A stretch of 62,060 bases of DNA, taken from Cytidiella melzeri (Eukaryota > Basidiomycota > Agaricomycetes > Polyporales > Irpicaceae). The DNA lies in NCBI GenBank assembly GCA_022592445.1, contig JABYQR010000278.1:1-62060 (forward strand), read 5' to 3'. Shown here one piece after another: positions 7,551 to 56,089 of this stretch. The first letter of the stretch is position 1. Every line of letters starts with the position of its first letter. Made by a program: the position numbers and the translations under genes. The notes below the pieces were generated by a model. The model ran no database searches. It was not told where the DNA came from and worked only from the letters and a program-made list of their open reading frames with translations.

Positions 7551-7751
7551 ATTCTAGAATACCATTAAATATAGGAATAGTATTGTATTGTAATGTAATG
7601 TATTGTATTGTATTTAATGGTAATCGTATTCTAAAAAAAATCCACAAGCGAGTATTTAATGGGTATTTAATGATATTCTGAGATTATATTGCATTATAAT
7701 GGTATTTTTGCAGAGCACTAACTCGAACCTGCAAAAAACCACAAGACGATC

Positions 7752-9091
7752 ATGCAGCACAGTACTCCTACCTTGGACGGTGAGTGGCGTCCAAACCGTT
7801 CGGTCATGCATGTACGAGATCTGTCTTTCGCTAGAAAGCCAGGCTTCCACCGGCGAGTCGGTGGACATCAGAGGAAGAGCGCAGGTTGCGCCTTTCACGC
7901 ATCCTGTATTTCCACAAGAGATCCTAGACCACATAGTTGGTTTCGTTCAGGATCTCGAGACTCTTCTAACGTGCTGTCTCAGCTCTCGCACGCTTCACCA
8001 TATGGGCACGAAGATGACGTTCCGACATATCGTTGTCCAGCCAAGAACATACCACGACATTCTCCGAGAGCTCGCAAACTCTCCGCTGAAAGCCTCTGCA
8101 GTCCGGCGCATTCATTTCTCCCCGGGAAAAGGCCATGGTACTGTGGAACTCAACCTGCAGGAGGCGATTCTGGTGCATGTGACGAAGCTCCAGGACGTCT
8201 TTATCGACTCGCAATTATTCCGCACGCGAGCTCCTGCGACAGTCCCCTTCCAAGACTGTAGTGCATCACAACATGTCACTCGGCTTACACTGAATAGGAC
8301 GCTATTTGATACCCCCTTACACCTCTTGGCCTTCATCAATGCTTTCCCAAGTCTGCGACATCTTACCCTGCGCGATGTATTCCGGAGAGCTGGGAATTCC
8401 CCCTCGCAGGAAGATCTAGACAAGTTGGTACCGCCATTTAAACGACCGAAACTGACCGCATTAGACCTCAACATGGGGAATTATATGATTGCATCACACC
8501 TTTTTTGTGAGGAGAGTGTACGGCGTTTGGAAGTGCTGGGACTCAAACCATGGGGCACACAAAGTAGCTGGTTGTCCCTCTTTGACAGAGATGCGGCTTA
8601 CAACAACCTACGTCACATAACCGTTCACAGTTTCATGTATCGTAAGTCCCTTTTCACACACTCCAACCGCAACTCTTCCACTCATGTACTCACCAGATCG
8701 CCGGGACGCCACGCCAATCTTGCCTAAAGCCCCAAACCTGAAGTCCCTCACACTGAAAGACATCTTCATTCACTCTCGAAACGCGCGGCTACTGGGCCAC
8801 GGGAAGTACATTCAGCACTTCCTCCTCACAATCTCGGCCAACGGCGTGGAAGAGCTCTTCTTCCATTTCAAGAAAGTCAGTTTCAACCACTTTGCGGAAT
8901 TTGCCATCGCGGAATGGCTTCCGTGTTTGTTCGACGACAAGTTTGCCAAATTGTCGCGCGTCGTTTACACCTTCAGCGGTGTCGCGTTGACGAATGGGAG
9001 AGCAGAAATCGAGGCCCATGTCCTGGATGCGCATAAAGTATGGGACCGGCGTGGTATCGTCGAGGTGATTGTCAAAAATGATGAACAGTAG
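7752..9091 (+). CDS. F-box protein (copy 1), three exons
   Basis: Exons 7752-7779, 8697-9091 and the large 7835-8641 are joined by two 55-bp GT-AG introns (7780-7834 and 8642-8696), giving 409 residues. The start at 7752 is chosen because exon 1 splices in phase to the F-box frame and the same structure holds in copy 2. An upstream in-frame ATG at 7699 lies inside the hAT end, and the ATG at 7810 is not conserved. The F-box is at residues 35-75 (FPQEILDHIVGF...LLTCCLSSRTL). The rest resembles the leucine-rich C-terminal region of agaricomycete F-box proteins. Family role: an SCF ubiquitin-ligase adaptor binding Skp1. The hAT right end is 31 bp upstream of the start, so the native promoter (3619-4107) is displaced by 3.6 kb. 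Confidence 0.85.
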
Positions 9092-9331
9092 GATTGTGTC
9101 GATGGGCGATAGATTTGGCAAACTTCATAGGCACGAAAAGCTACAACGCCAATGTGCTCTGTACAGTATTGATAATATCGTAGCTCGACGCTATCACGGA
9201 ACCAGAAAGTATTCAAGCTACGTTCTCACAGTCCACTCGCTTCAGTATCGAAGTTCAGTATCTTTTTAATCACTCCTGCCTCCTTCACACGTTACACCTG
9301 ATACCTCCACCGTACATGCCTATCCCCAAGC

Positions 9332-11082
9332 CTAACCCCTCTCCCCCCTATCAGCATCGTCAACCTCACCTCCAGCGCTCCCCAGTATCTCTGCTCGTCT
9401 CCGATTCTCGTTGTCCATCCACCACCACAGCGCACTCACAACCACGATCGCAAACAGCAGGTATCCAATCGCAATGATATGTGGCTTCCTATAATGGTCC
9501 TTTGCCCACTCTGGACGATAGATGAGCACGCCTGTGACGGCTCCAAGGTCGCCTATGGTGATTTGCATGGCGACGGCGACGGCGCGTTTGGTTTGGTTGG
9601 ATACGTTCTCAGAGGGCCAGCTATTATTCACAAGGGTCAATTTGTAGTATTACCTTTCGTTTGCTAGTAGCTCGCAAATCGCAATCCAGCAATGATTGTC
9701 GGCTATGAGTAAACGTCAATGTATAGACAAAATCGGCTTCATGTCAAGCACTCACCATGAACAAACTCAACGTATACAGCACAAACGCATGCCCATGGAA
9801 CAGCAGAGCGTATCCCCAGGCGAGGTGATCTGTAAACGCTTGTCGGACGTACACCCACTCGAATTTCTCCTTGTTAGCGGTATCTGAGTCTGCCGCCAAC
9901 CTCGCCAGAAGACGCGAGCGTTCGGCCTCTGTCAGCTGTCGGTGAAGTTCGTGTTGGTTGAGGTTTAAGGACGAAGTTAGTAGGAACAAAAAGTTACCCA
10001 TTTAGCTTTATGAGACCGTGTTGGCACTGTCCAATACGCAACTACCGAGACAACAACTGTGAGAAGGCCTTCCAGGATGAAGATCCTGCGTCGAACGCCG
10101 TGAGCTGAATGTAGTAAACTCGGAGGAAGAGGCATACCACTGCCATCCGCGCTTCCCGCCGATTCCATCCATCTTTCCAATAGCATATGCTAGCACACCT
10201 AAAGAGGCAAACCATCTGTACTCTGTGTAAATGATCCAGGTATATATGGACGTACCTCCGAACGCGCCTGCCAATGCAGCACCGCCGAAGAAAACAGCTA
10301 CACGCCAATGTCGCTCACGTCTGACAACATGACTCAAAACTCCAGCATGGAAGATTTGAGACCCACGCGACTCACTGAAGATAATACGTAGAAAACAGAT
10401 AAATCACTCCGGGGTACAACCCAGCTTCCGTTGCTCCTAGAACTGCGTCGCAAAAACAAGCCTATAGTTGACTACATCGTATACTAATCGAATTGAAAAC
10501 TCACGATAACGTATCCCGAACAAGCTGGCTTGGTTTGTGACGAAGCCTTTGAAATATTGACGCAATCCCCCAGCAGAATGTCAACGTCGGTAGCCAGAAT
10601 TGAAGGTCGAATCGTTTGAGGCTGGAAATGTGAGGTATTCGTGAGTATAGCCTATCGTAGTGGGACCATCTATCCTGCAGTGACCCATGTGTCAGACGAA
10701 GTTTCGACGTCGACACGGATTTGCGAACACGTACTTGGCGTTTCCCATATTAGACCTGCAAAATTATGTATCAGAACTCTACCTTGCATAACAATCATTG
10801 AAGCATGGACTCACCAATCCGAAAAGCTGAGCGGATACAAGAGCGGCAATACCGGCAGCAGTCTGTCCATCCCAGTCTGTCAGTGCACCGAGATCTCATA
10901 CTCGGTAACGAGCGAACGAGGACTCACCTGAGATCGACCTTGCTTAGCAACTTCTTGTCCTCCACGGTCCCATACTCGTCGTACACTTTCCACTTGCGAG
11001 GCACTCCGTCGACCTTTTCTGCTGAAGTCAACGAATGTTTCTCGTGATCAGCAGCGTCTCGGTCTGCAAGGTCAGAAGACAT
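9332..11082 (-). pseudogene. MFS transporter of the allantoate/nicotinate permease type, decayed (copy 1)
   Basis: The start ATG is at 11082 and several short introns are recognisable, for example AFGG|GTACGT..TTTAG|VLAYAIG. Family features are KVDLRLLP near TM1, WLPTLTFCWGIAS, ALAGAFGG, GIGGKRGWQWIFILEG, SRLLARLAAD, and the C-terminal TKRAVAVAMQ..GDLGAVTG with the IYRPEW block of the DAL5/TNA1 anion:cation symporter group. One extra T in the ATATTTCAAAGG stretch (about 10550) shifts frame between CWGIAS and GFVTNQAS. After PTIIAGLRFASY a stop follows, and roughly 80 residues (about TM8-TM11) are missing before the C-terminal block. Copy 2 has the same lesions, so decay predates the duplication. 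Confidence 0.75.
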
Positions 11083-11241
11083 CTTGAGGACGTTGGTGGC
11101 AGTGACACGTCGATCCTGATTATGAAAGTCAATCTCCAGTACTTATAAGAAAGCCTGAGTGTGTCGTGAGCTGTGATGAGGAAACGTAGAGGGAGGATGT
11201 CGCCATTGAACCCTGGAGCTTTCCCGTTGCAGAAGAATAAG

Positions 11242-12032
11242 CACTGGCCGCTGCAGAGTCCGGCGCAGACATGCTCGGGCTGATGTTCGTCCCCACTAGC
11301 AAACGGTTTATTCCCCTCCGACGCGCTCAAAAAATCTCTGCCGCGATACACAGCACCAGACTCTCCCGACCGGTGCTCGAAACCTCCGTGGATAGAATCG
11401 TCCCGAACGAACCGTGGTTCACCGCCCACGCCAACAGACTGTTCACCGTGCTCTCCCCTGCACTCTCCGCCGCCCGACCTCTCCTCGTTGGTGTGTTCCA
11501 AGACCAAGCGCGCTCGGAAATCCTCGACGCCGTCGCCTCTGCCAAGTTGGACCTTGTGCAGCTGCACGGGTCCGAACCACCCGAATGGGCGAAACATATC
11601 CCTGTACCCGTCATTCGCGTGTTCCGCGTCGGCGCGGCGGCTGAAGGGCATGGACACGGGCTCTCAGAGATCACTCGTCCCGGGTTGAACAATTTTGTGC
11701 TTTTGGACGCCGTCCTCCCTGGGAGCGCGAACGGGCTGAGTGGGGGGACGGGCCAGAGGGTGGATTGGCAGCTGGCGAAGAGGGTTGTGGAGAGCAGTGA
11801 GGTGGGGGGATGCGGCGCGTCCAATGCGGATGTTAACGAGTACCCGATGCCGATTATGCTCGCTGGAGGGCTCACGCCAGAGAATGTGAGGGAGGCGGTG
11901 GAGACTGTGAGGCCGTGGGCAGTGGATGTGAGTGGGGGTGTGGAGGTGGAGGGCGGACAGGGAAAGGACGTCGAGAAGGTGAGGGCGTTTGTGAGGGCTG
12001 CTAAAGAACCTTTTGTGGATCTAGTTTGCTAG
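11242..12032 (+). pseudogene. TRP1: Orphan PRAI domain: 3' fragment of tryptophan gene TRP1 (copy 1)
   Basis: From an AG splice acceptor at 11240-11241 the frame reads LAAAESGADMLGLMFVPTSKR, then QLHGSEPPEW, LLDAVLPG, AGGLTPENV and DVSGGVE. These are phosphoribosylanthranilate isomerase (TrpF) blocks to the natural C-terminus. In basidiomycetes this domain is the C-terminal part of the trifunctional GATase-IGPS-PRAI protein. Upstream there is no KICG strand with the catalytic Cys and no IGPS or GATase exon, only the 5' region of the divergent MFS remnant. An ATG at 11271 could give 253 residues but without the catalytic Cys. I therefore call it a duplicated, inactive gene tail; an unusual non-catalytic product cannot be excluded. 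Confidence 0.75.
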
Positions 12033-12048
12033 ACGGGGCGTGAATATA

Positions 12049-12232: not shown

Positions 12233-14854
12233 ATGAGCGAGCACGGAAAACGCAAGCGGGGAATCTCCCAGTCTATCACGGAGTGGGGTGGGCAGGCAAA
12301 ACGGAAGATTTCGGGGATTTTGAGCCGCAAGTCTTCGAAAGAACAGCCTTTAGGTGATAAAGTGAGTGTCATCAGAGCCTGAGCACTCAAAGCAGAAGGC
12401 AGAATCACTTATCTTTTCTAGGGAGAAGCACTTTCCTCAGTAGACATGCAGCAGGGTACCCGAGGCAATGGTTCTGCAGGCTCTGATGTGCCCGAGATTA
12501 GCACTGTAGTCGAGAGTCAGCCAGTGTCCACGGCCTATGAGAAAATTCAACCTACCACTTCAGCTCCTTCTGGGGGTGATACAACGTCGTCTCGTGCATC
12601 TAGCACTTCGTCTCTCGGTCGCATTTTCAATACCAGTCAGCTCAGGTTTCGACTTCAGTCCACTTTTGAGGAAATCACCACACCCACCTGGTCATCTCGT
12701 TCCCCAGTCTCTCCCGCATCATCCATCATGAATCTACCATCCAGAATGACCTCCCCGAGCCCATACACCTTATCCAATGCTTCGTCCAACTGGTCCTCGA
12801 GCCGAGGCAGTTTGATCAGCTTCGCGAGCGATGTTGTCTCGGAGAACTCAGAGTTGGGACCCCCGGAACCTTTAATCGTCGAGATTGATGCAACCGAGCG
12901 GGATTCAGACATGGAAGATGCTGTGGACGAAATGGAGGATGAGCTAGAGCCGGAGATTGGTACGGGAGGTGACAACAAACCAGTGCAGTCTATTACTTCG
13001 GCCTATACTCCACCTCCCGAGAAAGATGAAGCTTATCGTGCTTGGGAAGATCTGAAGGCATTGCTCGAGCCTCGCAAACCTTCGGGTAAAGGGAATAAGC
13101 CTTTTGAGGGTGGTGACCACTTACAGAAGCGTATGGAGATGATGAGAATGTTTCTTTGGCTGTACATCTCGGGAGATCCGCCGGCATGGATCGACGCTTC
13201 GATGCGCACAGCTGCCGCAAACGAAGGTGGAACAGGTCTTGCACGACGTCTCCGAAAATGGGCGCGAAATTTCATCGATGACCGCCATGATCTACCTGTC
13301 AACTTCAACGGCATGTGGAAACCGTCAGCACTAGAGAACGAAGAGCTAAAGGTTGCACTTAGCGAGCATCTCCAATCTGTTGGACAGCATGTTCGTGCTC
13401 TTGATATTGTTGAGTTCCTTGCGGAACCAAATACTCAAACACGATTTGGGCTGAAGAAGACCATCGGACTCTCGACTGCTCAGGGATGGATGCACCGTTT
13501 GCGGTACAGATGGGCCAAGCTTCCGAGTGGACAGTACGTTGATGGACACGAGCGCGAAGATGTTGTTAAATATTGCCAAGAGGTTTTTCTGCCGGCATTG
13601 GAGAAGCTGCGGCCATTGTTACGGCAGTACGTTGTCAATGGCGAAGAAGTTGCACCTACAGACTCTGATGGCAATCTTGTCATTGATCCGGCTCGTCGTA
13701 CTGTTATCTGGTGGCATGATGAATTGACGTTCTATGCAAATGATCGTCGTAAGGTACGATGGGTACATGAAAACGAAAAGGCCGTACCTCGAGCAAAAGG
13801 CGAAGGTGCATCATTAATGGTTTCGGACTTCGTCTCAGCAGACTACGGCTGGCTACGATCTGCGGATGGAAAGAATTCGGCTCGTCGCTTGTTCCGTCCT
13901 GGAAAGAATCGTGATGGATACTATACAAATGCCGATATCCTGGAACAGGTTGCAGCTGCCATTGAACTTGTCCATCAAGAGTGGCCCAACGACGACCACT
14001 GCTTCATTTTTGACAATGCTCCCACTCACCTGAAACGAGCAGATGACGCTCTCTCCGCCCGTAGCATGCCAAAGAATCCCTCGACTCTGGAAAAGAATTT
14101 TGGCGTAGACAGCACTGTATCGGCGGATGGGAAGCCGGTATACAGCCCTGATGGAAAGCTACTCAAGGAGCGCCGTCCAATGACAGATGGGGTTCTATCG
14201 GACGGCACAACTCAACCTCTTTATTTCCCATTGGATGACTCCGACCCTGCACGTCGTGGCGCATTCAAAGGTATGGCAATAATTCTCACGGAACGAGGCT
14301 ACGAGAATGCACATCAGCTCCGCGCGCAATGCCCCAAATTTCAATGCCCCCCACCTTTGAACGGTCTTGCACCTCTAGAATTCTACTCCACCAACCCATG
14401 CTGCTGCCGTCGCCTTCTCTTTCATCAGCCGGACTTTACCAATGCAAAGTCCCTTCTCGAGCTTCGATGCGAGAAGGAAGGTGTCGGCTGCATATTCCTC
14501 CCGAAATTCCATTGTGAGCTCAATCCGATTGAGCAGTGCTGGGGGTACTCGAAGCGGATCTACCGCAAGAATCCGACTTCGAAGAAGGAGGCAGATCTCG
14601 AGGCAAATCTCATTGCAGCTCTTGACTCGGTTCCTTTGAAATCCATTCGCCGGTAAGTGACATGATCTTTGTGCATACCATGGCTGTTCTAACCATCTCG
14701 ACGCAGATTCTCTACTCGCGCTCTGCGCTTTTCGGATGCCTACTATAAGGGCCTTAACGGAAAGCAGGCCGCGTGGGCCAGTAAGAAATATTCAGGCCAT
14801 AGAGTAATCCCCAGGGATGTTTTCAAACGCCTCACAGCCGAGAATATAGTTTAG
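12233..14854 (+). CDS. DDE transposase of the Tc1/mariner-like element, three exons, 835 aa
   Basis: Exons 12233-12361, 12422-14652 and 14707-14854 are joined by introns of 60 bp (GTGAGT..TAG) and 54 bp (GTAAGT..CAG). All junctions keep frame, and the last exon ends at TAG 14854. The N-terminus is basic (MSEHGKRKRG), followed by a long Ser/Thr-rich and acidic region (to about residue 230). A helical, possibly DNA-binding part comes next, then the catalytic domain: WWHDE (Asp about 476), FIFDNAPTH (Asp about 574) and ELNPIEQCWGYSKR (Glu about 747). The second Asp and the Glu are about 172 residues apart, against 34-41 in usual Tc1/mariner enzymes. The extra segment holds a Cys cluster (NPCCCRR). 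There are no stops or frameshifts, so the protein may be active. Confidence 0.88.
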
Positions 14855-16404: not shown

Positions 16405-16829
16405 GATCCAGGGTTTTATGGTGTATTCTTATTTGGATTGGAATATCATCTCTACATACGTGTATTTTGTTCCGGGGCAGATTCAGAGCCTACCAGGGAC
16501 ATGCTCGTGACATACACAGAATTGGTGACTGGACTAAGTGCACAACCTTCAACAAACGGGTTACAAATGTGTCATTGTCGCAAAGCCCACAAACATGTAC
16601 ACCCACACTTCTCATCATCTATCATCACATCTGAAATAATGAAAAGTATACAATGGAGATAACATTCTACTTTGGTGGGCTAAACTTGAACCTGACGAAC
16701 TCTGTTCTGATCATCCATTTGTGCCCAATACTACATGGTTGCTTCTACCGGATCACTTCGTTACTGTGAAGCATACACATCCCGACTTTATGCAAGTGTT
16801 CCTCCACTGATAGGGCATCTAATGCTCTA

Positions 16830-17489
16830 TTATTGCTTCTCACTGCCGCGACTTTGCCAGTATGAGCGCGGTTGAAATTCTTGCTGTCTGAGGAGTGCCT
16901 GCCACTTCCGTATGCGTTCCCGATACGGCGCCGTGTCTAGTGGTGGCCGTGGTGGCTGTGACAGTGCCGCGGCCTTTGGTCGTGGCTGTGACGATGGTGG
17001 CTGTGGCGGTGCCGGTTGTGGCTGTGACGGCGCCGCCTTTGGTTGTGGCTGTGGCTGTCCCTGCCCTGCCCGTAGTTCTGCCTGCCCAACCTTTGTTGCT
17101 GGTCGAACCAGTTGCGGTCGAGCCGGCAGTTGCGGTAGAAACTGTTGCGGTCGATCCGGCAGTTGCAGTTGCGGCTTTTGTCGTGACGGCCCCGCCTGTT
17201 GTTGTCTCAACAGTGGTCTCCTCGAACGCCCCTGCTGTTTGAAGTCCGGGGACAATGGTCTCTTCCAGGTTGGTCCCTTCCCTTTTGCCGGTGTTTGCTG
17301 CAAATCTGCTGGCATCCGTTTGGTGATTTGATATGGATTGGTAGAGTCACGTGTGTCTGTGCTCCTTGTCTCTAAGGCAGTGGGGGAGTGGGATTCTCTA
17401 CTGCCGTATGGGGTGGCAGACACAGTGACTGTATAGAATGCACTGGTGACAATAGCTGCAATCAAAACAAGAGAGGTTGAGAAGTGCAT
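16830..17489 (-). CDS. Secreted prepro-protein with variable mature domain (variant 1, 219 aa)
   Basis: The start ATG is at 17489; the frame extends upstream, but this ATG begins a typical signal peptide (MHFSTSLVLIAAIVTSAFYT, cleavage near residue 25). A Ser/Thr-rich pro-segment follows, ending in QITKR (residues 54-58), a Kex2-type dibasic site. The predicted mature part is 161 residues, very basic and rich in Pro and Gln (QPQPQPK.., PAPPQPPSSQP), and ends near QEFQPRSYWQSRGSEKQ. The leader (17316-17489) is almost identical to the copy 2 paralogue, whereas the mature part is nearly unalignable apart from short echoes (KRP, QAGPS, FQP). It has no cysteine pattern and I do not recognise the family. 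A secreted, rapidly diversifying or recognition-type protein is inference. Confidence 0.75.
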   Translation of the reverse strand: MHFSTSLVLIAAIVTSAFYTVTVSATPYGSRESHSPTALETRSTDTRDSTNPYQITKRMPADLQQTPAKGKGPTWKRPLSPDFKQQGRSRRPLLRQQQAGPSRQKPQLQLPDRPQQFLPQLPARPQLVRPATKVGQAELRAGQGQPQPQPKAAPSQPQPAPPQPPSSQPRPKAAALSQPPRPPLDTAPYRERIRKWQALLRQQEFQPRSYWQSRGSEKQ

Positions 17490-17689
17490 TATGATATAGG
17501 GACTCTTGGGTGATTGAAAAAGGTTTTGGAAAGATAATGATATGGCTAGCTGTTGGAAGAGTTTCAGTACAGTGGCCCAACACAAGGGCAAGATGGACAG
17601 TAATGTACTTACCGACCAGCGCTGAAGCAAGGAAAAGACTTGGAGTGATGGATGTGTTCTAAGGATGAAGCAGGCTGGCAATGGGTCTT

Positions 17690-18829
17690 ATATATCTTGC
17701 AAATGCATCCTGTACAGCAATGACTCAAAGCAGAGACTACAATCTCAGATTGGGGTTGGAAATGTCCTAGTTACCTTTTGTTTTAAAGATACACTGCTCA
17801 GTGATCAATGCAACACATTGTGCACTGCATGCTCTGAGATGGTTGGTAGACCGTTGTCAACAGCATTGTTTTACCCCCCTTTTTTAATCTCTCATATCAA
17901 AGTCAATGCTGTGATCAGACCAGAGCCTTGTCCACTGATACAACATGTATGCAGCAATCAGAGACATTCAGAGTAAATCATCATAGCTATTTTCCAAGTC
18001 TAACTCTCAATTAATTCTGTAGCAGTGGTCTGGGGTCCTACTCCCTGAGAAATTGGGTCATTCATAAGAATAAAGCAGAATCGGGCCTTTTTTTTAACCC
18101 TCCTTCAGAGGAAAGACAACAAGAATTAACCCATGATTATTGCTTTTCCAGTACTTACTCATAACAATTTCATTTACCAGACGATCCAAGTATTTGTATA
18201 CTCACATGTTTAACACATCTGCAACCCTGCTGTCCTTTGTCCACATTTTGATCTAGTCCATTGGCCAGCTACATTCAACATAGTTGGTTGGTGAATGGTA
18301 GCTACACAGCAAGGACAGTTAAATGACCTCACTCAACATAGTGTACATGAAAGCTATAGTTGTGTGTCTAAACATAGGTAATCCAATCTCACCTACCAAT
18401 GGATCTCCTCACAAAAACTGTTGCTGGTGAATTATTAAAAACAATACACTACTTGTAACCAGCTCTTTGAACCTTTGTAATGCTTTGAACTGGCAACCAA
18501 AATGCAGTTTTTGACTTTCCTGGACAGCACATGGGCCCAAATGAACAACTAATATAAACCCACATATAGCCCCATCTTGTATCAACACCCTGGACCTGGT
18601 CCGGGAATCTTGTCAATTGAAGTGGAATTGAGCAGATTATGGCTAGTCTACTGTTGAAAGTCTCTCAGACTTGCATCAAAACTCTGCTCTGGATTAGTGA
18701 GGTATGACTTGCCAAATTGAGTAGTCATGAATTTCAAGCCCATGCAAGATAATGTAAAATCATGGCCAGGCCCTCAGATTCATTGTAGACATGTTCAGCA
18801 ATTCACAAACCTTGCTTGTCCCCTGAGCA
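17690..18829. other. No gene seen; shared with 49375-50530 of copy 2
   Basis: This noncoding stretch holds the putative promoter side of the secreted gene. From about 18440 it carries a diverged copy of the satellite front block also found at 51090-51504 and 57478-57879 (shared AATGCAGTTTTTGA and TCAATTGAAGTGGAATTGAG). Confidence 0.5.
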
Positions 18830-19435
18830 ACATTTACCAGTATTTTTAGCTTCTGGAGCTGATCCTGACAAGACATTGCCAAGCTCTATATTCTTGGAGC
18901 GTGTAAGGTTTCTGTTGCATCAGCAGTGGGCAATGCAACTGATTGTCTCACAAATCCTTGCAAACATTGTATTCTTGCTGAGCAGGAGTTATCATCAGAA
19001 CACAGCCTGTGGAAGTTTCAGTCAAAATGAGGCAGTTCAGACATCAACAAGACATGTATGCCCTAAAATTTTGATCCTAGCAGGAAATCTAGAACTCCTA
19101 TATTCAGGGGCACATAATTGTTCAAGAAAACGTAGGGGGTGCAATATTGTTTTTGTTGCATCAGCAGTAGGCAATGCAATTGATTGTTTCACAAAGTTTG
19201 GTTGCTTGCTGAGCAAGAGTTACCATCAGAACACAGCTTGTGGCAGTTCCAATTGAAATGAGGCAGTTCAGACATCAACAGGACAAATTTGCCCTGAAAG
19301 TTTGATTCTAACAGGAAATCTAGAACTACTATATTCAGGGAGTACATGATTGTTTCCATTCCATTAGCAGTGGCAATGCAACTAATTGTTTCAGAAAATT
19401 TTGGAAACATCAGTTGCTTTCTGGGCAAGCGTTAC
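18830..19435 (+). repeat. Satellite B array (copy 1 tail)
   Basis: Units of about 200-230 bp contain GGGCAATGCAACTGATTGT, a TTACCATCAGAACACAGCCTG motif and GAGGCAGTTCAGACATCAAC. The array matches 50530-51074 in copy 2 and is cut by the gypsy1 LTR. Confidence 0.7.
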
Positions 19436-32761: not shown

Positions 32762-33057
32762 CGCGTACTTGACAAAGTTCTTGTGCGCCAAATCCGTATT
32801 GTTGAACAAGGCGTTAAGCTCCTTTTGAGCACCTTCCTTGTCGTCCCTTTGTCCGTACTGTACCTTGAGCTCGTTTTCGAACTCTTCCCACGTTCCAATT
32901 GTCTGACCCTTTGTGAGCTTCTTGATTCACGGCTCCATGTATTGAGCCGCCGCGCCTGAGAGCCAGTTCATCGCGACGGCAATACGTTGCCTGTCTGTAG
33001 CAACGTTCTCGTGGACAAGCCACAGAGAGATCTTGTTCAACCACTCGTTGAACTTGA
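32762..33057 (-). pseudogene. gypsy1 gag, middle segment
   Basis: Frame FNEWLNKISLWL..ATDRQRIAVAMNWLSGAA..GTWEEFENELKVQYG is the capsid region of Ty3/Gypsy gag. It joins 40706-41192 upstream and 30121 downstream once insertions are removed. One in-frame stop (MEP*IKKL) shows decay. Confidence 0.75.
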
Positions 33058-33815
33058 TGACACGGAGACAAGGCTCGACGTGACAAACAGGGACACGAAG
33101 TGGATGACGACGAAGTGGTGGTGGTAGGCGTGAAGCTCAATACTCTCACCAGCTATAAACCTTATGCAGATGTCTAGCCCAGTAAAGACCAAGTTAGCAT
33201 TTGTACTACCAGCTATATAGTACAAGAGGGGGTGGCTTACCTAGCCCAGTAAAGACCAAGAGGTCGAGATGGGGGGCTAGGAGCGTACATGTAGCAGTAT
33301 ATATAGACTTCAGGGACCTGCGCACAGACCATGTTGAGGGCAGGCTTTGCAAGAAGCCGTGTGAACGAAGAACAAAAGGACTACCTAAAGGAGAACAATA
33401 GCTATTGTCTAGACCTTGCCAAGAACTCTACTCGTGAGAGAATCTATCTAAAAGGAGACCAACTATTGTATTCCATTCCCACACCTGTGAGAACATCCTT
33501 CCATAAAGAGAACAATAGGGAAAGAACAATAAGGAGCCCATGTGAACGGTATCTATGACGTCAAACCCTAGCTATGGGCTGAGCCATGTGCTTGTAGCCA
33601 TGTGGTCTTACTTAAGCTAAGTCACATGCCAGTGTGACGTAGTAGCAAGTAATGTGACCGTGTGGAGCGTCTAAGCCACGTGATACGGGCGCTTAATAGA
33701 CGTGCAAAGGAGTTTTATGCAGAGAGAATTGAAACTAGGTTGTAGCCCGGAGTTTTACAGATAAAAACAAGAGGTAAATTGCGAAAATTAAGGGCTAGTC
33801 AGGCCATCCATGACA
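33058..33815 (-). repeat. gypsy2 3' LTR (758 bp)
   Basis: Plus-strand ends TGACACGG..CATGACA. It contains a TATATATAGAC box and ACAATAG repeats. Confidence 0.95.
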
Positions 33816-33980
33816 TTACCCCCCTCCTAATATCGAGCGTCCTCGCGAAGCATCACTGTGCTGTGGTGATAGAGGTCTTCTACCCGTCTACAGGGATTCA
33901 GCAGAATTGCCCCGATTGTCTAGTCAGAAGGATGCTAGGAAGTTTCTCCCCTCCTGGTGTCGTTGACTCGACGTTACCCG

Positions 33981-36545
33981 TCAGTGTGATGTTCTTGAGA
34001 TATCCAGCCCGATGTGTTTGCCTTCATCCCAGCTAAGATCGTATGTAGATGGATAGATCGTGCGAAGGAAAGCGGGGTCGGTCTGGGTATTGAATTCCCG
34101 AAAGTGCGAGCGGAGATCCGCGAAGAGTGAAGCTTTGATGACCCGGGGCGCTCCGGGGTTTGCTTTGTAGAAGTCGTCAATCGCTTCTTGACTATTCTCG
34201 AGGTTTTCAACCGGTTCCCAGCTATTGTGTCCGTCTGAATACCCTTCCCATTTGACAAGGAATTGCAATTTCTTCCAACGTCCGTGTAACCTGCTGTCTA
34301 GCACTTTTTCGACAACGTACTGTTCTTCTCCTTCTATGACGATAGTATCAGGAGGTGGAGGTACGTCTTTGCCGTTGTCGTGCCAGGGACTTAGACGGTT
34401 GATATGGAAGACGGGGTGGATTCGTAGATAGCTGGGTAGATCGAGTTTGTAATCGAGATCGCCAATGCGTTCGATGACCTTGTACGGGCCGAGTTGTCGA
34501 GGACCGAGTTTAGGGGTAGCCTGGTGGATCTGAACGTTCTTAGCATTCAGCCAGACCATGTCGCCCACCTGGAAGACGCGTGGAGATCGCTTCTCAGATT
34601 CGTAGAGTTGCTTCATCTTTTCTTTGCTTAGACGAAGGGCTGCTTCGGTCTCCTTTCGTACTCGAGCCATATTATCAAGGCGCTCATCGAGTGATGGGAT
34701 ATTGCTTCGCTTGCCGACTGGTATGGTGAAGTCGGGGCGATATCCATAGATGACTTCAAACGGTGTTTGGGAGTTACCCGCGTGTACTCGCGAGTTGAGT
34801 GCAAACTCAGCCGCCGGTAGATGATCGACCCAATCGTCTTGTCGTTGCTGACAGAATAGACGCAGATACTGTTCAATATCCTGGTTTTTGCGTTCGACTT
34901 TGCCATTTCCTTGCGGATGATAGGCGGTCGTAAAACCAGTCTCTATGCCTAAGCGGTGATAGAGCGCACGCATGAAGCACGCTGCAAACTGGGGTCCTCG
35001 GTCAGAGAACACCTTCTTGGGAATGCCGTGAAGTCGGAATACTTCCTTGTAGTGTAGATCGGCAATCCCCTCAGCGTTAACCTTAGTGGTAGTAGGGATG
35101 ATGTGCGTTTGATCGGAGTAATGGTCGACATAGACCGCGATCGAATCAAATCCCTTAGAGGGTGGCAGCTGAGTGATGAGATCTACTCCGACGTGTTCCC
35201 AAGGTCCGGCCGGAGTTTCCTGAGGCTGTAGTACTGCTTTAGGGTGTGGAGCTGACTTGTAGCGTTGGCAGCGATCACAACCTAGTACGTAAGTCTCGAT
35301 GAAGGCATTCATCTTTGGCCACCAATAGTGTCGTGAGACTAGCTCTATGGTGCCGTGTTTGCCTGGATGACCAGCCGCGGGTGTGTCATGGCAAGATTTG
35401 ACAATTTCGTAACGGAGCTCTTTGTTATTAGGGATATAGAGTTTTCCCTTGTAATAGATGAGTCCGTCACTCTCTTCCCATTCGAGTAAACCGCCGATAA
35501 GTTTGCGAGGACCCTTCTTGCGAAGGGTAGCGAGAGCTTGTGCGACTTCTGCTTCTTGCTCCGTGCATTCTCGGATCTTTGATTCGAGTGGAGAAGCAGT
35601 GGCGAGTGCACTAGTAGCGAGGATCCGGAAGTGTTCCGGTTTCAGTACCACCTGATCCTTGTTGTCTTCTTCGTCCGTGACAGCGTGAGAGTGAAGACGA
35701 GAGAGAGGATCAGCGTGTATCATGGTACTACCGGGCTTGTGTACCAACACGAAGTCGAAGTCAGCCAAGAGTAATGACCAACGTGCTTGACGTCGAGTGA
35801 GGTGTTGCGCAGTCTTCCAGTACTGCAGGTTTGCGTGATCTGTCCAGATCTCAAACGGTTCCTTGAGCCCCTCAAGGTAGTGGCGCCAATCTTTGAGAGC
35901 CTCGGTGATGGCTAACATCTCCCGATCAAAGATTTCGTAGTTACGTTCAGCTTCAGTCATAGATGCGGACCGGTAGGCGATAGGGTGATAGAATCCATCT
36001 TCCTTTGATTTCTGGGAGATGATTCCACCGGTCGCATAGCCCGAGGCATCAACTTCTAGACGTGTAGGGAGTTCAGGGTCCCAGACTGCCAAGATAGGCT
36101 TAGTGGTAAAGGCCTTCTTTAGCATCGTGAAGGCAGTCTGCTGTGCTGGACCCCAGACGAACGGTACGTCCTTCTTAGTCAGGTCGTGTAGAGGCCGTGC
36201 GTGCTTTGAGAAGTCTTGAATGAAGCGGCGGTAGAAGTTGGCAAACCCAATGAATCCTCTGACTTCTTTGAGGTTCTTGGGTGTGGGCCACGTAGAAACT
36301 GCTTGGACTTTGACAGGGTCCATAGCTACTTCGCCGGCACGAATGATCAACCCGAGGTATTCGATCTCAGATTTCTCAAATTCGCACTTTTCCGGCCGAA
36401 GGTAGAGGTCATGCTGCTGAAGTCGCTCGAGGACTTCATGTACAACCTTGCGGTGCTCTGTCAGGTTGTTGCTCCAGATCAAGATGTCATCTAGATAGAC
36501 AGCCACCTTGCCCTCGGCGACGAGGTCGGCGAAGATGTTGTCCAT
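33981..36545 (-). CDS. gypsy2 pol C-terminal part: RT palm, RNase H, integrase, chromodomain
   Basis: An open frame of about 854 codons begins inside the RT. Order: RT catalytic VYLDDILIW near the start; RNase H (EVDASGYATGG..NYEIFDREMLAI); integrase zinc region (GHPGKHGTIE..YWWPKMN..CDRCQR); integrase core with Asp in GVDLITQL, Asp in FSDRGPQF and Glu in GKVERKNQD; GPYKV region; chromodomain (YVVEKVLDSRLHGR..VKWEGYSDGHNSWEPVENL). No internal stop, so the catalytic part was under recent constraint. Upstream RT is shifted in frame near 36560. Confidence 0.9.
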   Translation of the reverse strand: MDNIFADLVAEGKVAVYLDDILIWSNNLTEHRKVVHEVLERLQQHDLYLRPEKCEFEKSEIEYLGLIIRAGEVAMDPVKVQAVSTWPTPKNLKEVRGFIGFANFYRRFIQDFSKHARPLHDLTKKDVPFVWGPAQQTAFTMLKKAFTTKPILAVWDPELPTRLEVDASGYATGGIISQKSKEDGFYHPIAYRSASMTEAERNYEIFDREMLAITEALKDWRHYLEGLKEPFEIWTDHANLQYWKTAQHLTRRQARWSLLLADFDFVLVHKPGSTMIHADPLSRLHSHAVTDEEDNKDQVVLKPEHFRILATSALATASPLESKIRECTEQEAEVAQALATLRKKGPRKLIGGLLEWEESDGLIYYKGKLYIPNNKELRYEIVKSCHDTPAAGHPGKHGTIELVSRHYWWPKMNAFIETYVLGCDRCQRYKSAPHPKAVLQPQETPAGPWEHVGVDLITQLPPSKGFDSIAVYVDHYSDQTHIIPTTTKVNAEGIADLHYKEVFRLHGIPKKVFSDRGPQFAACFMRALYHRLGIETGFTTAYHPQGNGKVERKNQDIEQYLRLFCQQRQDDWVDHLPAAEFALNSRVHAGNSQTPFEVIYGYRPDFTIPVGKRSNIPSLDERLDNMARVRKETEAALRLSKEKMKQLYESEKRSPRVFQVGDMVWLNAKNVQIHQATPKLGPRQLGPYKVIERIGDLDYKLDLPSYLRIHPVFHINRLSPWHDNGKDVPPPPDTIVIEGEEQYVVEKVLDSRLHGRWKKLQFLVKWEGYSDGHNSWEPVENLENSQEAIDDFYKANPGAPRVIKASLFADLRSHFREFNTQTDPAFLRTIYPSTYDLSWDEGKHIGLDISRTSH

Positions 36546-37236
36546 CAGAGCTTGGAAGGTAGCGGGTGAGTTGTGAGACCGAAGAACATGACTTTAGGTT
36601 CGAAGAGTCCTCGGTTGGTAACGAAGCCGCTTTGTACTCGTCTCCTTCTTTGATGCGGACATTGTGATATCCCCAACGAACATCGAATTTGTGAAGATCT
36701 TTGCACCCTTGAGCTTGTTGATGATGTCGGTGGCAAGCGGTAGAGGGTAGCGTTCTTTACAGTGATGTCGTTGAGTTTTCTGTAGTCCTGAATAAGTCGG
36801 AGTTTGTTATCCTTCTTTTTGATGAAGAAGACTGGAGAAGCCATCGGAGACTTAGAAGGCGTGATGTAACCTTTGGATAGGTTCTCCTGGATGAACTTGT
36901 CAAGCTCGGCTTGTTCATTCAGGGGCATAGGGTAAACTTTTGATTTGATGGTCTCAGGAGCGTCTGGTTTGAGATCAATCGAATGGTCCCAGGGCTGATG
37001 CTGGGGTAGCCGATTAGACTCTTCCTCAGAGAAGACTTTAGCGTGTCTATGGTACTCTGATGGAACAATGTCTTCGAAGGAGCGCTGAGCTTTAGCTTCG
37101 TTTGCTTCGGCAGCAAGCTTAGTAGAGTAGGTGAAGCCGGCCATACACCAGACTTCGTCAGTGGTGTCTTGGATAATACCGGCTTTGACCCACTGCCTAC
37201 GTTCTTTGCGATTACCGTCAACCTTCTGGAAAGGTT
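36545..37236 (-). pseudogene. gypsy2 RT N-terminal part, frame broken by 1-base deletions
   Basis: Contains DHSIDLKPDAPE, YPMPLNEQAELDKF, SPVFFIKKKDNKLR and LIQDYRKLN. In the next 200 bp, four or so positions each appear to lack one base (near 36577, 36630, 36695 and 36760), so the RWGYHNVRIKEGDEYKAAF region alternates between frames. All are at or near short homopolymers. Confidence 0.8.
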
Positions 37237-37787
37237 CAGTCAGGAGATTCTTCCGAGCCGCTCGGAATTGTCATTTCTCCTTTTTCCCAGTTGACAGTAG
37301 GGTTTACGCGCTTGAGCCATGGTAGCCCAAGAATGACGTCTTCTGGACCTAAGTCCGTGACGAGAAACTCTGCCTTTTCCGTGTGATCTCCGACTGTGAG
37401 TGTAAGGCGAACGAAGTGCGTTAATCCGCCAGCTTTATTCTTAGTTCCGTCAATGTTATGCAATGAGATAACCCTTTCGAGCGGGTGCTGAATAATCTTA
37501 TGCTTCTTGACGAACTGGTGACTGATGAATAAAGCCGTAGCTCCCGAATCGATCATTGCAGGAACGCGAATGCTTCTATTCAGACCTTTAACTAGTACAT
37601 GTACACGGAAATGAGATGATAACCGATCTAGCGACGATATAGTACATGAGGAGATAGTAGACGACGGGCATGGAGTAGACATTGTACACGAGGAAGACGA
37701 GGCAGAAGACGAGGAGGACGACGAAGGAGGCAGGGACAGGGTATCTAGGGGACTCGCAGCTGCGGCTGTGTCACGAGTCCGCTTCAA
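37236..37787 (-). CDS. gypsy2 aspartic protease region (start of pol)
   Basis: A Ser-rich linker is followed by a retropepsin domain with the catalytic IDSGATALFIS and the second-half GLPWLKRVNP. The frame overlaps the end of gag in the -1 frame and has no ATG of its own. It would mature gag-pol. Confidence 0.75.
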   Translation of the reverse strand: MKRTRDTAAAASPLDTLSLPPSSSSSSSASSSSCTMSTPCPSSTISSCTISSLDRLSSHFRVHVLVKGLNRSIRVPAMIDSGATALFISHQFVKKHKIIQHPLERVISLHNIDGTKNKAGGLTHFVRLTLTVGDHTEKAEFLVTDLGPEDVILGLPWLKRVNPTVNWEKGEMTIPSGSEESPD

Positions 37788-39030
37788 AAAACCGCATTGA
37801 TTTTGGCTGCCATCTCATCCATTTGCTTCTTTTGGATGTCAAGCATGTCCTTGAGTGCCGCAATCTTAGCATCCTTGTCATTGGACGCGTCTTGCTTCGC
37901 AGGGGTAGTAGTCGACGAGGTCGACGAGGTAGCAGCAACTTTTTGTCCCTTAGGGACGCCTTGGAGTCGCTTCAGGCAAACCGCCCCCCAATGACCGGTA
38001 CCACCGCAGTGGTTGCAAACCGGGTCATCAGGGTGCTTCGAGTCCCTCTTTTGTGGTTCTCGGATCCACAAACCGAGCAGCGCTTGCTCATCTCCTTCTT
38101 CCATTTCTGGAAGATCTCCTGTTTGCCCAGACCCGCAAAGAGCGAGTCAAACGAGGCGGAGAAGCGGGACGCATCGATCTCCATAGCGTTGGGATCGCGG
38201 AACGCTTGCTGGTGGGACTTGCCGTGTCCCGAGGAACTGTCCACCATAACCTTGCCCGTGCTGTTTCGCAAATCGGCGAGCTGAGCATCGACTGCCTTGC
38301 ACTGGTCCTTGAGAGCGTCGTAGGTAGCAGCGCGGGTTTGAAAGTACGAGACACGTTGCAAGTACTCGGTGCTCAAGCTCGACTTGAGACGATCGAAGAG
38401 GTCCTGCTGGCTCCAGCCAGTGCGAGGAGCCCAGGTCTCGAACTCGGAGATATGGGCGGCGAAGGTTTTGTTGCCTTGCTTCATGTTGGCTATTTTCGTC
38501 TTAGCCTCCATGACAGCATCTATAGGCTCGAATTTGGCTTTAAAAGCCTCGATAAATGTGTCCCAGTCATTTCCAAATGCTGGCTTGCTATTGGCTAACT
38601 CCTCAATGTGAGGGCGAGCCCAATCAGCGGCGTCCTCCTGCATGAAGGACAGGGCGCTTGTGATGAGTTTATGAGGATCGAAGATCCTCGCGCCGTTGTT
38701 GTCCACCCGGACCTGGCCTTGCGCGTCTTGCTGGAAGAACGCTTTTCCTTGATTTTGCGCCCATACTATGAACGCGTGGCGGAAGAGTCGGGCTTCCGAC
38801 GATGTTTTCCCCTTGAAGGAGACCGGCTTCTCGACAATACTCCGTTCCCTGGAGCCGTGAGTAGCAGCGACAACTGCTGGCGTCTGTGCGGCGGCGAGTG
38901 CAGCCACCTGATTGGTGAGGTCAACCATCTTTTGTGTCAGGACGCCCAACATATTTAGGACGTCTTGCTGGCTCAGATTGGCGACTGGGGCAGCTGGGGC
39001 AGCAGGGGCGGCGGGCTGGTTGGGATCCAT
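37784..39030 (-). CDS. gypsy2 gag, two frames
   Basis: From the ATG at about 39030 (MDPNQPAAPA): an Ala/Pro-rich N-terminus, then a capsid domain (EKPVSFKGKTSSEARLFRHA, DWDTFIEAFKAKF) and a first zinc knuckle CSVCGSENHKR. About 38060 the frame shifts, then a second knuckle CNHCGGTGHWGAVC and a coiled-coil-like tail follow to the stop at 37784. The break between the knuckles is probably a point indel, because both parts are needed for a normal nucleocapsid. Confidence 0.8.
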
Positions 39031-39076
39031 GTTGTCTTTGGTGATGAGGAGGAGAAATGTATGCAATTATTACTGT

Positions 39077-39890
39077 CTAGATCCACTCGAAGTAGCTATC
39101 GTTATTAACTACGTTAAGTTGCGCAAGAACTTTGTCGTAGTTTTTACGGAGCTGCTTAAAAGAAACTTTCCCGATTGCTTTACAACCCCAGTCCAAGAGC
39201 TGCCACTCGCGGTCTGCTGTGACGGGAGCGAGATTGTCGACCAGGTTGAGGAAACGATCGACCTTGTTGACGAGGTGAAACAGGGCGCGACGGTGGTCGG
39301 GGTTGGCGCGGTTCAGGAGTTCTTCAAGCTCTGTGAGAGCTTGCAAGCGAGTGCGGACGGCGGTAAGTTTTGGCTTGAAAATGCCTACGAGATCAACCGG
39401 TGACAACTTCTTGAAGTCGATCAACACCGGCTTTGGTGCAGCGGGAGCGGGAGTAGGCGGAGGGAGTTTGGCAAGTCGCTCAGCGAGAGTCGGCTTGTGA
39501 GTTTGTTGCTCAGCAAGAGTGCGAGCACGTTCCTCGGCTGCACGTTCTCCGTATGCTCGTGCAGAAGCGCGGAGTTGTCGATTTTCCTCGTAAGAGGGGA
39601 CGGTGAGGGTGATGCCTTTGACAGGCGGCTTCTTTGATACGTACTTCGCGACGTTGACGAGGTCTTTGTCAGACCAGCGATGAGGTTGACCGCTCGTACG
39701 CTTGGCAGCGAGAGCGTCGAGGAAAGATGGGGGAGGCACCTCTTGAGCTGAGGCTCGTTCGTAGAGAGGTCCTTGGAAAAACGGGTGCGCGTGTCCTTAG
39801 GCACTGAACAACGCAGGGGTAGAAACGGACGACGTAAGTAGTAGCTCAACGGTATGAAAAGACCGGAGACGTACTCGTCAAACAGGAATA
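39077..39890 (-). CDS. gypsy2 extra frame upstream of gag ('ORF0'), no ATG
   Basis: The main frame is 39739-39077. A 1-base deletion in a T-run near 39775 separates it from an upstream frame that begins just after a stop near 39890. No ATG occurs in the frame. It has a basic, Ala/Glu-rich middle (predicted coiled coil, AYGERAAEERARTLAEQQ), a Pro-rich hinge (PPPTPAPAAPKP) and an all-helical C-terminus with ADREWQLLDWGCKAIGKVSF. The gypsy1 leader has a similar C-terminus, so this may be a real accessory protein of these elements. Function unknown. Confidence 0.55.
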
Positions 39891-39948
39891 AACTTTTTTA
39901 AACGGTGGGAATGGGGGAACCCAGGGTTTCACAACGATCTCGACCTAA

Positions 39949-40705
39949 TGACACGGAGACAAGGCTCGACGTGACAAACAGGGACACGAAGTGGATGACG
40001 ACGAAGTGGTGGTGGTAGGCGTGAAGCTCAATACTCTCACCAGCTATAAACCTTATGCAGATGTCTAGCCCAGTAAAGACCAAGTTAGCATTTGTACTAC
40101 CAGCTATATAGTACAAGAGGGGGTGGCTTACCTAGCCCAGTAAAGACCAAGAGGTCGAGATGGGGGCTAGGAGCGTACATGTAGCAGTATATATAGACTT
40201 CAGGGACCTGCGCACAGACCATGTTGAGGGCAGGCTTTGCAAGAAGCCGTGTGAACGAAGAACAAAAGGACTACCTAAAGGAGAACAATAGCTATTGTCT
40301 AGACCTTGCCAAGAACTCTACTCGTGAGAGAATCTATCTAAAAGGAGACCAACTATTGTATTCCATTCCCACACCTGTGAGAACATCCTTCCATAAAGAG
40401 AACAATAGGGAAAGAACAATAAGGAGCCCATGTGAACGGTATCTATGACGTCAAACCCTAGCTATGGGCTGAGCCATGTGCTTGTAGCCATGTGGTCTTA
40501 CTTAAGCTAAGTCACATGCCAGTGTGACGTAGTAGCAAGTAATGTGACCGTGTGGAGCGTCTAAGCCACGTGATACGGGCGCTTAATAGACGTGCAAAGG
40601 AGTTTTATGCAGAGAGAATTGAAACTAGGTTGTAGCCCGGAGTTTTACAGATAAAAACAAGAGGTAAATTGCGAAAATTAAGGGCTAGTCAGGCCATCCA
40701 TGACA
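39949..40705 (-). repeat. gypsy2 5' LTR (757 bp)
   Basis: Matches 33058-33815 except one fewer G in a G-run near 40165. Followed by the CTTGA duplication. Confidence 0.95.
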
Positions 40706-43392: not shown

Positions 43393-43903
43393 GTACTTGT
43401 CCTCAGATGTATGATTTAGGCATCCTCTGGAGTTGTACGACATGCTTTCCATGTCATTTCCTATGCTACTAGAACACAGGCGTACATATATGTGCAGTAT
43501 CCCTATAGTACTATACTACTTAGTCTACACAACCCATATCTGTATGTCTCAGCTAATGTGATGGTTACTACTAGAGTTTCCATATACGGCTGCATAATCC
43601 CCATATCAAGACTGTGGGAACTCTGCTACCCTAAAGTGTCCTTGTAATAAGGCGTGGGAAACTACATATTATATTATATAGTTTTAACAGAAAGGCTGCG
43701 AGTAGATAGGCTTGAAAATTTGTAGAAAAATCACAAAAATGTCTTTGATTGTATTTTAATTTAACCCCTCAAACACAACCATATATTCACGGGATTTTTA
43801 ACATATCAATAACTCTCACAATAATTTCACGTCATGTGAAATCGGCCTTTGCCCGCAGTGGTTGCATCTTGTACTCGAACCTGCAAAAAACCACAAGACG
43901 ATC

Positions 43904-45243
43904 ATGCAGCACAGTACTCCTACCTTAGACGGTAAGTGGCGTCCAAACCGTTTGGTCATGCACGTACGAGATCTGTCTTTCGCTAGAAAGCCAGGCTTCC
44001 ACCGGCGAGTCGGTGGACATCAGAGGAAGAGCGCAGGTTGCGCCTTTCACGCATCCTGTATTTCCACAGGAGATCCTAGACCACATAGTTGGTTTCGTTG
44101 AGGATCTCAAGACTCTTCTAACGTGCTGTCTCAGCTCTCGCACGCTTCACCGTATGGGCACAAAGATGACGTTCCGACATATCGTTGTCCAGCGAAGAAC
44201 ATACCACGACATTCTCCGAGAGCTCGCAAACTCTCCGCTGAAAGCCTCTGCAGTCCGGCGCATTCATTTCTCCCCGAGAAAAGGCCATGGTACTGTGGAA
44301 CTCAACCTGCAGGAGGCGATTCTGGTGCATGTGACAAAGCTCCAGGACGTCTTTATCGACTCACAATTATTCCGCACGCGAGCTCCTGCGACAGTCCCCT
44401 TCCAAGACTGTAGTGCATCACAACATGTCACTCGGCTTACACTGAATAGGACGCTATTTGATACCCCCTTACACCTCTTGGCCTTCATCAATGCTTTCCC
44501 AAGTCTGCGACATCTTACCCTGCGCGATGTATTTCGGAGAGCTGGGAATTCCCCCTCGCAGGAAGATCTAGACAAGTTGGTACCGCCATTTAAACGACCG
44601 AAACTGACCGCATTAGACCTCAACATGGGGAATTATATGATTGCATCACACCTTTTTTGTGAGGAGAGTGTACGGCGTTTGGAAGTGCTGGGACTCCAAC
44701 CATGGGGCACACAAAGTAGCTGGTTGTCCCTCTTTGACAGAGATGCGGCTTACAACAACCTACGTCACATAACCGTTCACAGTTTCATGTATCGTAAGTC
44801 CCTTTTCACACACTCCAACCGCAACTCTTCCACTCATGTACTCACCAGATCGCCGGGACGCCACGCCAATCTTGCCTAAAGCCCCAAACCTGAAGTCCCT
44901 CACACTGAAAGACATCTTCATCCACTCTCGAAACGCGCGGCTACTGGGCCACGGGAAGTACATTCAGCACTTCCTCCTCACAACCTCGGCCAACGGCGTG
45001 GAAGAGCTCTTCTTCCATTTCAAGAAAGTCAGTTTCAACCACTTTGCGGAATTTGCCATCGCGGAATGGCTTCCGTGTTTGTTCGACGACAAGTTTGCCA
45101 AATTGTCGCGCGTCGTTTACACCTTCAGCGGTGTCGCGTTGACGAATGGGAGAGCAGAAATCGAGGCCCATGTCCTGGATGCGCATAAAGTATGGGACCG
45201 GCGTGGTATCGTCGAGGTGATTGTCAAAAATGATGAACAGTAG
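43904..45243 (+). CDS. F-box protein (copy 2), three exons
   Basis: Exons 43904-43931, 43987-44793 and 44849-45243, with two 55-bp introns at the same positions as copy 1; 409 residues, open throughout. Intron 1 begins GTAAGT here, GTGAGT in copy 1. A handful of substitutions distinguish the proteins (for example VEDLKTLL/VQDLETLL, SPRKG/SPGKG, TTSA/TISA). The region of about 510 bp up to the gypsy1 LTR is the native upstream sequence, uninterrupted here, so this copy is the better candidate for normal expression. Confidence 0.85.
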
Positions 45244-45443
45244 GATTGTGTCGATGGGCGATAGATTTGGCAAACTTCATAGGCACGAAAAGCTACAACG
45301 CCAATGTGCTCTGTACAATATTGATAATATCGTAGCTCGACGCTATCACGGAGCCAGAAAGTATTCAAGCTACGTCTTCACAGTCCACTCGCTTCAGTAT
45401 CGAAGTTCAGTATCTTTTTAATCACTCCTGCCTCCTTCACACG

Positions 45444-48520: not shown

Positions 48521-49174
48521 CTACTTTGATTTTGGTTGAAACCGACGAATGCTTGCCAGATCAGCTTGAAGTGACCAATACATGGCTTGTTCTAACGGAG
48601 CAGTAGGAACTCTATCATCGCCATTTTCCAAACGCCTCCAGACTATATCCAACAACCTATTGTGTTCCTCCATTGGTAGGTCATGTAGTGTCGCCTCCAA
48701 TGGTAGTCTCGGTTGACTTAACCGCTCATGTATTCCTTGGAGCACCATCATCTGTTGGGCCACCGGCAGCTTTGACAAGGCGTCCCGTTGGCTTTCCGAG
48801 AGATCCGAGAGAGACAGTCGTGGCGCTGATGGCCCCGCCTGTGGTTGTGGCTGTGACGGCCCCACCTGTGGTGCTGTCAGTGGTCCTGGCGGTTCCTGCT
48901 TCTGTCTTTTGTTTGAGGCCTCGTCTTTGCCTCCCGGCGCTGGTCTCTTTAATTTCGGTGGACTATGTGATTCTGTTGGTTGCGCATCTGCCATTGGCAT
49001 ACGTTTGGTGATTTGATATGGATTGGTAGAGTCACGTGTGTCTGTGCTCCTTGTCTCTAAGGCAGTGGGGGAGTGGGATTCTCTACTGCCGTATGGGGTG
49101 GCAGACACAGTGACTGTATAGAATGCACTGGTGACAATAGCTGCAATCAAAACAAGAGAGGTTGAGAAGTGCAT
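48521..49174 (-). CDS. Secreted prepro-protein with variable mature domain (variant 2, 217 aa)
   Basis: The ATG at 49174 opens the same 58-residue leader as variant 1 (signal MHFSTSLVLIAAIVTSAFYT, pro-segment, QITKR). Immediately after KR and a shared Met-Pro the proteins part. The mature 159 residues read MADAQPTESHSPPK, a basic KRP..NKRQKQEPP stretch, QVGPSQPQPQAGPS, then a helical, non-repetitive part (SLSDLSESQRDALSKLP, VAQQMMVLQGIHERL, LHDLPMEEHNRLLDIVWRRL). They end RRFQPKSK. Mature length is nearly the same as variant 1 (161). No Cys pattern or known domain. Confidence 0.75.
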   Translation of the reverse strand: MHFSTSLVLIAAIVTSAFYTVTVSATPYGSRESHSPTALETRSTDTRDSTNPYQITKRMPMADAQPTESHSPPKLKRPAPGGKDEASNKRQKQEPPGPLTAPQVGPSQPQPQAGPSAPRLSLSDLSESQRDALSKLPVAQQMMVLQGIHERLSQPRLPLEATLHDLPMEEHNRLLDIVWRRLENGDDRVPTAPLEQAMYWSLQADLASIRRFQPKSK

Positions 49175-49374
49175 GATGATATAGGGACTCTTGGGTGATT
49201 GAAAAAGGTTTTGGAAAGATAATGATATGGCTAGCTGTTGGAAGAGTTTCAGTACAGTGGCCCAACACAAGGGCAAGATGGACAGTAATGTACTTACCGA
49301 CCAGCGCTGAAGCAAGGAAAAGACTTGGAGTGATGGATGTGTTCTAAGGATGAAGCAGGCTGGCAATGGGTCTT

Positions 49375-56040: not shown

Positions 56041-56089
56041 AGCACAGAGATGAGCACCAATATGCACTTGAGATGATCCCATCAAGATC

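Follow-up and report, generated by a model that had tools for sequence, protein, structure and literature searches.

Secreted protein families in which a constant leader precedes a variable payload are best known from animal venoms, skin peptides and immune peptides. The conotoxins and the frog-skin peptides are animal pre-pro families of this kind, with a constant leader, a hypervariable mature part and many gene copies. Mussel myticalins are described as pre-pro secreted peptides with a constant leader and a variable mature part without cysteines (PMC12294457). The HYP effectors are presented as single-gene loci whose alleles differ in how many motifs the central domain contains and how these are arranged (PMC11228951), and the KEPs as fungal Kex2-processed repeat proteins with repeated near-identical motifs (PMC6339444). 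Effectors and other small secreted proteins of fungi are characterized as shorter than 300 aa, predicted to be secreted, orphan and fast evolving (PMC7105643, PMC10513199, PMC6540522).

The window analysed here, a stretch of 62,060 nucleotides from the Cytidiella melzeri assembly, carries two genes, V1 and V2, that belong to a large family of predicted secreted pre-pro-proteins in which, on balance of the evidence, recombination probably keeps the head of the gene uniform and diversifying selection drives the payloads apart. C. melzeri, of the polypore order, is a wood decayer, and no paper naming the species was found in the literature collection searched. Like the conotoxins, frog-skin peptides and myticalins, the family combines a constant leader with a variable mature product and many copies, and most of its payloads lack cysteine, as in the myticalins. 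It differs from the animal families in its fungal host, a mature part of approximately 80-160 aa, the predicted helical domain of V2, the number of leader loci (at least 202) and a shared predicted 5′UTR intron. By analogy, the C. melzeri family would work like the animal constant-leader families, with membership in any of them not claimed. A conotoxin-type cysteine framework was ruled out, with 46 of 65 mature parts free of cysteine and 31 cysteines among 6336 residues overall, in agreement with the first-pass annotation, which had noted no such framework in V1 and V2.

The likeness to the other systems above is partial. As in the HYP effectors, variation is concentrated in one part of a secreted-protein gene, however a HYP-type single-gene locus is ruled out by the number of leader loci, as is the single hypervariable locus that the first-pass annotation had envisaged; the substitutions and indels lie after the pro-segment, and a pair of genes on contig C482, discussed below, differs by substitutions. 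Like the KEPs, the family has products that are predicted to be secreted and are preceded by a likely Kex2 site, whereas one variable payload appears to follow the KR here. The genes also resemble fungal small secreted proteins in being shorter than 300 aa, predicted to be secreted, orphan and fast evolving, but here the conserved part is the leader plus promoter, and the products are cysteine-poor.

V1 (16830..17489) and V2 (48521..49174) are single-exon ORFs of 219 and 217 aa on the minus strand, each composed of the common head and its own variant payload. The hydrophobic, conserved leader of the family ends in VSA and is a predicted signal peptide, covering residues 1-25 in both genes (17415..17489 in V1 and 49100..49174 in V2, minus strand), with the V1 cleavage point presumably falling between VSA and TPY, where the -3,-1 rule places it. 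The pro-segment follows as residues 26-58 on the same strand (17316..17414, with terminal ITKR and the KR at 17316-17321, in V1; 49001..49099, with the KR at 49001-49006, in V2). Also on the minus strand, the payload of V1 is P/Q-rich (16833..17315, residues 59-219), and that of V2 (48524..49000, residues 59-217) is predicted to consist of a low-confidence P/Q tail and then five helices at approximately 72-92 pLDDT, in a model built from three aligned sequences. Structure comparison with this model gave no clearly recognisable fold relative of the helical domain. A predicted 5′UTR intron of 63 nt lies upstream in the shared head, at 17550..17612 in V1 (GTAAGT...CAG) and 49235..49297 in V2 (minus strand). 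V1 and V2, the two proteins tested against Pfam-A, had no matches at E <= 0.1.

The two genes lie, as the first-pass annotation had placed them, in duplicated segments that are 95-98% identical: 7721-12048 and 43873-48223 (98.0%), 17310-19122 and 48995-50797 (94.9%), and the 3′ flank at 16405-16602 and 48241-48438 (97.0%). The near-identity that it had reported for the leaders up to the Kex2-like KR also holds, with one base difference, synonymous, in the first 60 codons, and it extends beyond the leader. Divergence peaks in the mature part and falls away in the 3′ flank, again as proposed: the mature part (16833-17309) has 138 mismatches among 297 aligned bases plus 180 gap columns, versus 6 differences in 196 bp of the flank (16405-16600). 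The description of the mature parts as nearly unalignable is borne out by these counts and goes too far in one respect, as a four-way alignment with two C390 copies shows the payloads to be strongly diverged yet partly homologous, with the C-terminal end of V2 aligning past the V1 stop.

These two further copies (C390_37124 and C390_52335) have leaders 95% identical to the window pair, with fragments of the duplicated segment next to them. C390_52335 gives the better match to the V2 payload (70% over residues 14-159) and C390_37124 a weaker one (45%), with three further matches at E 0.04-0.94. The V1 payload has no close match but itself in protein and DNA searches of the assembly. Since V2 retains the C390_52335 payload type and the V1 payload has no close match, V1 is likely the changed copy of the pair. 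Its payload probably derives from an old allele or a lost sibling, with the C-terminal end lost afterwards, and unequal crossing-over placing two old alleles side by side is a possible route. The alternative raised in the first-pass annotation, that the mature region is a foreign insertion, found no support in payload searches of the assembly.

The best single evidence for recombination is a tract at 17310-17840 that differs from copy 2 at 2 positions in 531 bp, beside an adjoining stretch (17841-18840) with 51 differences in 991 aligned positions (Fisher p = 7e-8); the values from distant pairs rest on poor alignments. One end of the tract falls at or near the border of leader and payload and the other in noncoding DNA, and for this reason gene conversion is its likely origin. 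We infer that conversion produced this tract. No donor close to the V1 payload, or to the C482 patch described below, appeared among the DNA matches, which gives no evidence that a resident copy supplied either of them by conversion; the searches missed even the diverged siblings of V1, such that distant donors could escape.

The chance is close to even that V1 is a pseudogene in decay, in which case its payload would say little about selection; this is compatible with recombination and diversifying selection acting on the rest of the family. V1 is similar to V2 in length and lacks the C-terminal end of V2, and beyond the stop of its frame lies DNA (16667..16829, minus strand) alignable with the final coding stretch of V2 and the C390 ORFs as far as their stop region. 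The payload values for V1 and V2 (dN 0.78, dS 0.87) are near neutral and show no excess of replacement changes, and the composition of the V1 payload is P/Q-rich. V1 may be decaying on these grounds, however its leader is intact, and drift after the duplication alone would not yield a payload dS of approximately 0.9 beside a 3′ flank with 3% differences. The absence of both the siblings' C-terminal end and a replacement excess sits poorly with V1 as a clean second allele, as the first-pass annotation had it.

Beyond the window, leader searches identify the leader at 202 loci or more on 160 contigs of the C. melzeri assembly, this lower bound comprising the best 150 of 317 candidates in one search and 52 new loci picked from the best 150 of 334 in a second. 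A 22-nt 5′UTR splice-donor motif has 372 matches at up to 3 mismatches, versus 1 for the reversed control, with some loci carrying two. Of 100 listed motif places, 53 are followed within 700 bp by one of the 202 leaders; the 47 that lack one there may be lower-scoring leaders or orphan heads. Of the 150 first-search loci, 84 were fetched (the best 82 and the last two listed) and 82 kept, so that the examined genes are 80 of the best 82 leader matches plus the last two listed and do not form a random sample. ORFs of at least 100 aa are present in 65 of the 82 (approximately 10 expected, with a maximum of 18 in 200 shuffles), the remaining 17 being shorter than 100 aa and perhaps broken or interrupted by an intron, and ORF length lies between 130 and 190 aa in 50 of the 82. 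The mature span is open in the +1 frame in 3 of 65 and in the +2 frame in 1 of 65.

The leader is constant and the payload variable throughout this set, as the first-pass annotation had argued from two genes. Leader similarity (E<1e-3) joins 6597 of 6642 directed pairs of the 82 (99%), a figure inflated by the finding of members via their leaders, and mature-part similarity at the same threshold joins 38 of 4160 directed pairs of the 65 (0.9%), the payloads being mostly unrecognisable as related. DNA matches among 3321 pairs number 1346 at -700..-60, 17 at +200..+480 and 70 at +600..+1200, in windows of unequal length. The head is shared among the 82. In gapped alignment, conservation starts at about -200 or further upstream, takes in the predicted 5′UTR intron and ends with the signal peptide; in a fixed-register alignment it stands out only in the leader and the 30 bp directly ahead of the ATG. 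The donor motif is present within 180 bp upstream in 61 of the 82, versus 8 of 82 for a control stretch taken from within the gene, with an acceptor also in range in 59 of 82 and a median intron of 63 nt. Pairs that agree in residue at codons 2-26 also agree in codon at a frequency of 0.64, versus 0.30 expected, and this synonymous conservation could result from constraint on the RNA. KR or RR occurs in residues 31-91 of 53 of the 65 ORFs (shuffles have a mean of 25 and a maximum of 34), an enrichment near the leader end that fits the Kex2-like processing step suggested earlier.

Four close pairs are informative on selection in the payload; two show an excess of replacement changes, concentrated in the payload, and two do not. 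In V2 and C390_52335 the C-terminal 93 codons, corresponding to the predicted helical domain, have dN 0.219 and dS 0.051 (dN/dS 4.3, p = 0.0026), in a comparison that left out indel stretches, while the leader, the aligned P/Q blocks and the 3′ flank (6/230) differ by 2-3%. C390_52335 also has one duplicated stretch with KR. The second pair, L101 (C482:3250-4250) and L102 (C482:8300-9240), consists of inverted duplicates 5 kb apart on C482. Across 2092 bp these differ at 29 positions, of which 19 fall within 165 bp of payload, 8 within the final 94 bp of the repeat and 2 in the remaining 1.8 kb compared. The differences are clustered (p = 2e-19, with the last 94 bp left out of the test); payload codons 79-134 contain 18 nonsynonymous changes and 1 synonymous change, with several codons changed twice, and codons 1-53 contain no differences. 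The nonsynonymous excess has p = 0.07 for this pair alone and p = 0.0006 when pooled with V2 and C390_52335. A DNA search of the assembly returned no other match to the C482 patch, and hence no close donor, with the proviso that distant donors could escape. The pairs without an excess are V1/V2 and L048/L083, the latter close throughout (dN 0.04, dS 0.03). The diversifying selection suggested in the first-pass annotation is thus supported for the V2/C390_52335 and C482 payloads, but not between V1 and V2, the pair for which it was proposed.

In V1/V2, V2/C390_37124, C390_37124/C390_52335 and all 12 distant pairs, the signal peptide has a lower dS than the mature part; the distant pairs were hand-picked from the best mature matches, and their dS leans on alignments of approximately 20-42% amino-acid identity. 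Leader and payload dS are about equal in V2 and C390_52335. In L031 and L007, 19 kb apart on C312, identity is 89-95% at -600..-60 and falls to 72% over the final 60 bp ahead of the ATG; the signal peptide is 89% and the mature DNA 52% identical. The drop in the final 60 bp, together with the equal dS values of V2 and C390_52335, indicates that the head is not always younger than the payload.

Under the reading favoured here, promoter, predicted 5′UTR intron and signal peptide, together with a pro-segment carrying a likely Kex2 KR site, make up one head that recombination, for example gene conversion, would homogenise across the family; selection would drive the payloads apart, partly via alleles or copies absent from this assembly. 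The signal peptide and KR are presumably used, and the payloads would be freed as small cysteine-poor proteins. As to function, we propose that they may form an arsenal for antagonism or recognition, directed against fast-changing targets such as competing microbes, grazers or other mycelia. Products that share a promoter, are predicted to be secreted, are likely released by Kex2 and diversify would fit a role against partners of this kind.

An account without recombination, in which the head is under purifying selection that includes the nucleotide level and the payloads are merely fast-evolving, is unlikely. Functional constraint could yield conservation limited to the leader and last 30 bp in fixed register, or to promoter, 5′UTR and leader when gapped; random pairs have 61% identity at -150..-60 versus 44% at -600..-300, and dN/dS above 1 in two payloads accounts for part of the divergence. 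It is the V1/V2 head that argues against this account, as its silent and noncoding sites are near-identical, against 5% divergence in the flank and approximately 50% at synonymous sites of the payload.

Diversification targeted to the locus, with the payload segment edited or mutated and the head spared, is improbable as an explanation. The C482 pair is what suggests it, with 19 changes in 165 bp, doubly hit codons, no other match found and 2 changes in the other 1.8 kb; a donor allele missing from a single assembly would give the same pattern, however, the 18:1 ratio of nonsynonymous to synonymous changes requires selection regardless, and the remaining close pairs are identical or evenly diverged. 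A broader version, several hundred genes with one recombining expression-and-export head and payloads renewed by locus-targeted editing, templated mutation or cassette replacement, is likewise a long shot, and if true, the recognition or antagonist proteins secreted would differ from mycelium to mycelium. That the apparent duplicates were created in the assembly by haplotype mixing or chimeric joins is very improbable: the assembly has 731 contigs, the window contains retroelements and satellites, exactly identical copies occur elsewhere and the database gene models come from contigs of matching length and therefore lend no independent support, but four related head copies on two contigs have open payloads and graded similarities.

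Whichever process supplies the payload changes, pairs of the C482 type make selection, recombination among population alleles and dedicated diversification directly testable against one another. An arms race of this size, with its 202 or more leader loci, is unexpected in a polypore-order fungus, and the family is traceable via its head, including the predicted 5′UTR intron, despite mostly unrecognisable payloads. Similar families in other fungi have possibly been overlooked; protein database searches, of limited sensitivity, matched 8 C. melzeri proteins and none outside the species.

Several further features accompany these genes. Three pairs of family members (L034/L035, L097/L098 and L099/L100) show no difference in the 400-1100 bp compared and are uninformative on selection; such identical copies lie on C398, C278 and C112/C459 and represent recent duplications or assembly effects. 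On C390, an inverted repeat (L080, C390:50736-52289, 97.7%) surrounds the upstream region of C390_52335, where the 5′UTR motif is found on the opposite strand (C390:51504); the upstream head of this gene may be inverted and its expression impaired. An ORF with a PRA-isomerase match, tested in copy 1, is duplicated in the window (11271-12032 and 47446-48207), its first copy within the segment at 7721..12048, and related DNA adjoins both C390 copies. Between this segment and V1 lies a 736-aa ORF (12446-14656) with a DDE_3 endonuclease match, likely a transposon insertion since the flanks adjoin in copy 2 (48223 and 48241). An LTR retrotransposon-like element occupies 33057-40705 between the duplicates and is likely a recent insertion, as its terminal repeats are 99.9% identical over 759 bp; a related stretch (96.8%) is found on C390. 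Dense tandem or dispersed repeat families, mostly 74-94% identical, lie at 18900-19435 and 50580-59540 of the window and likewise occur near the C390 copies.
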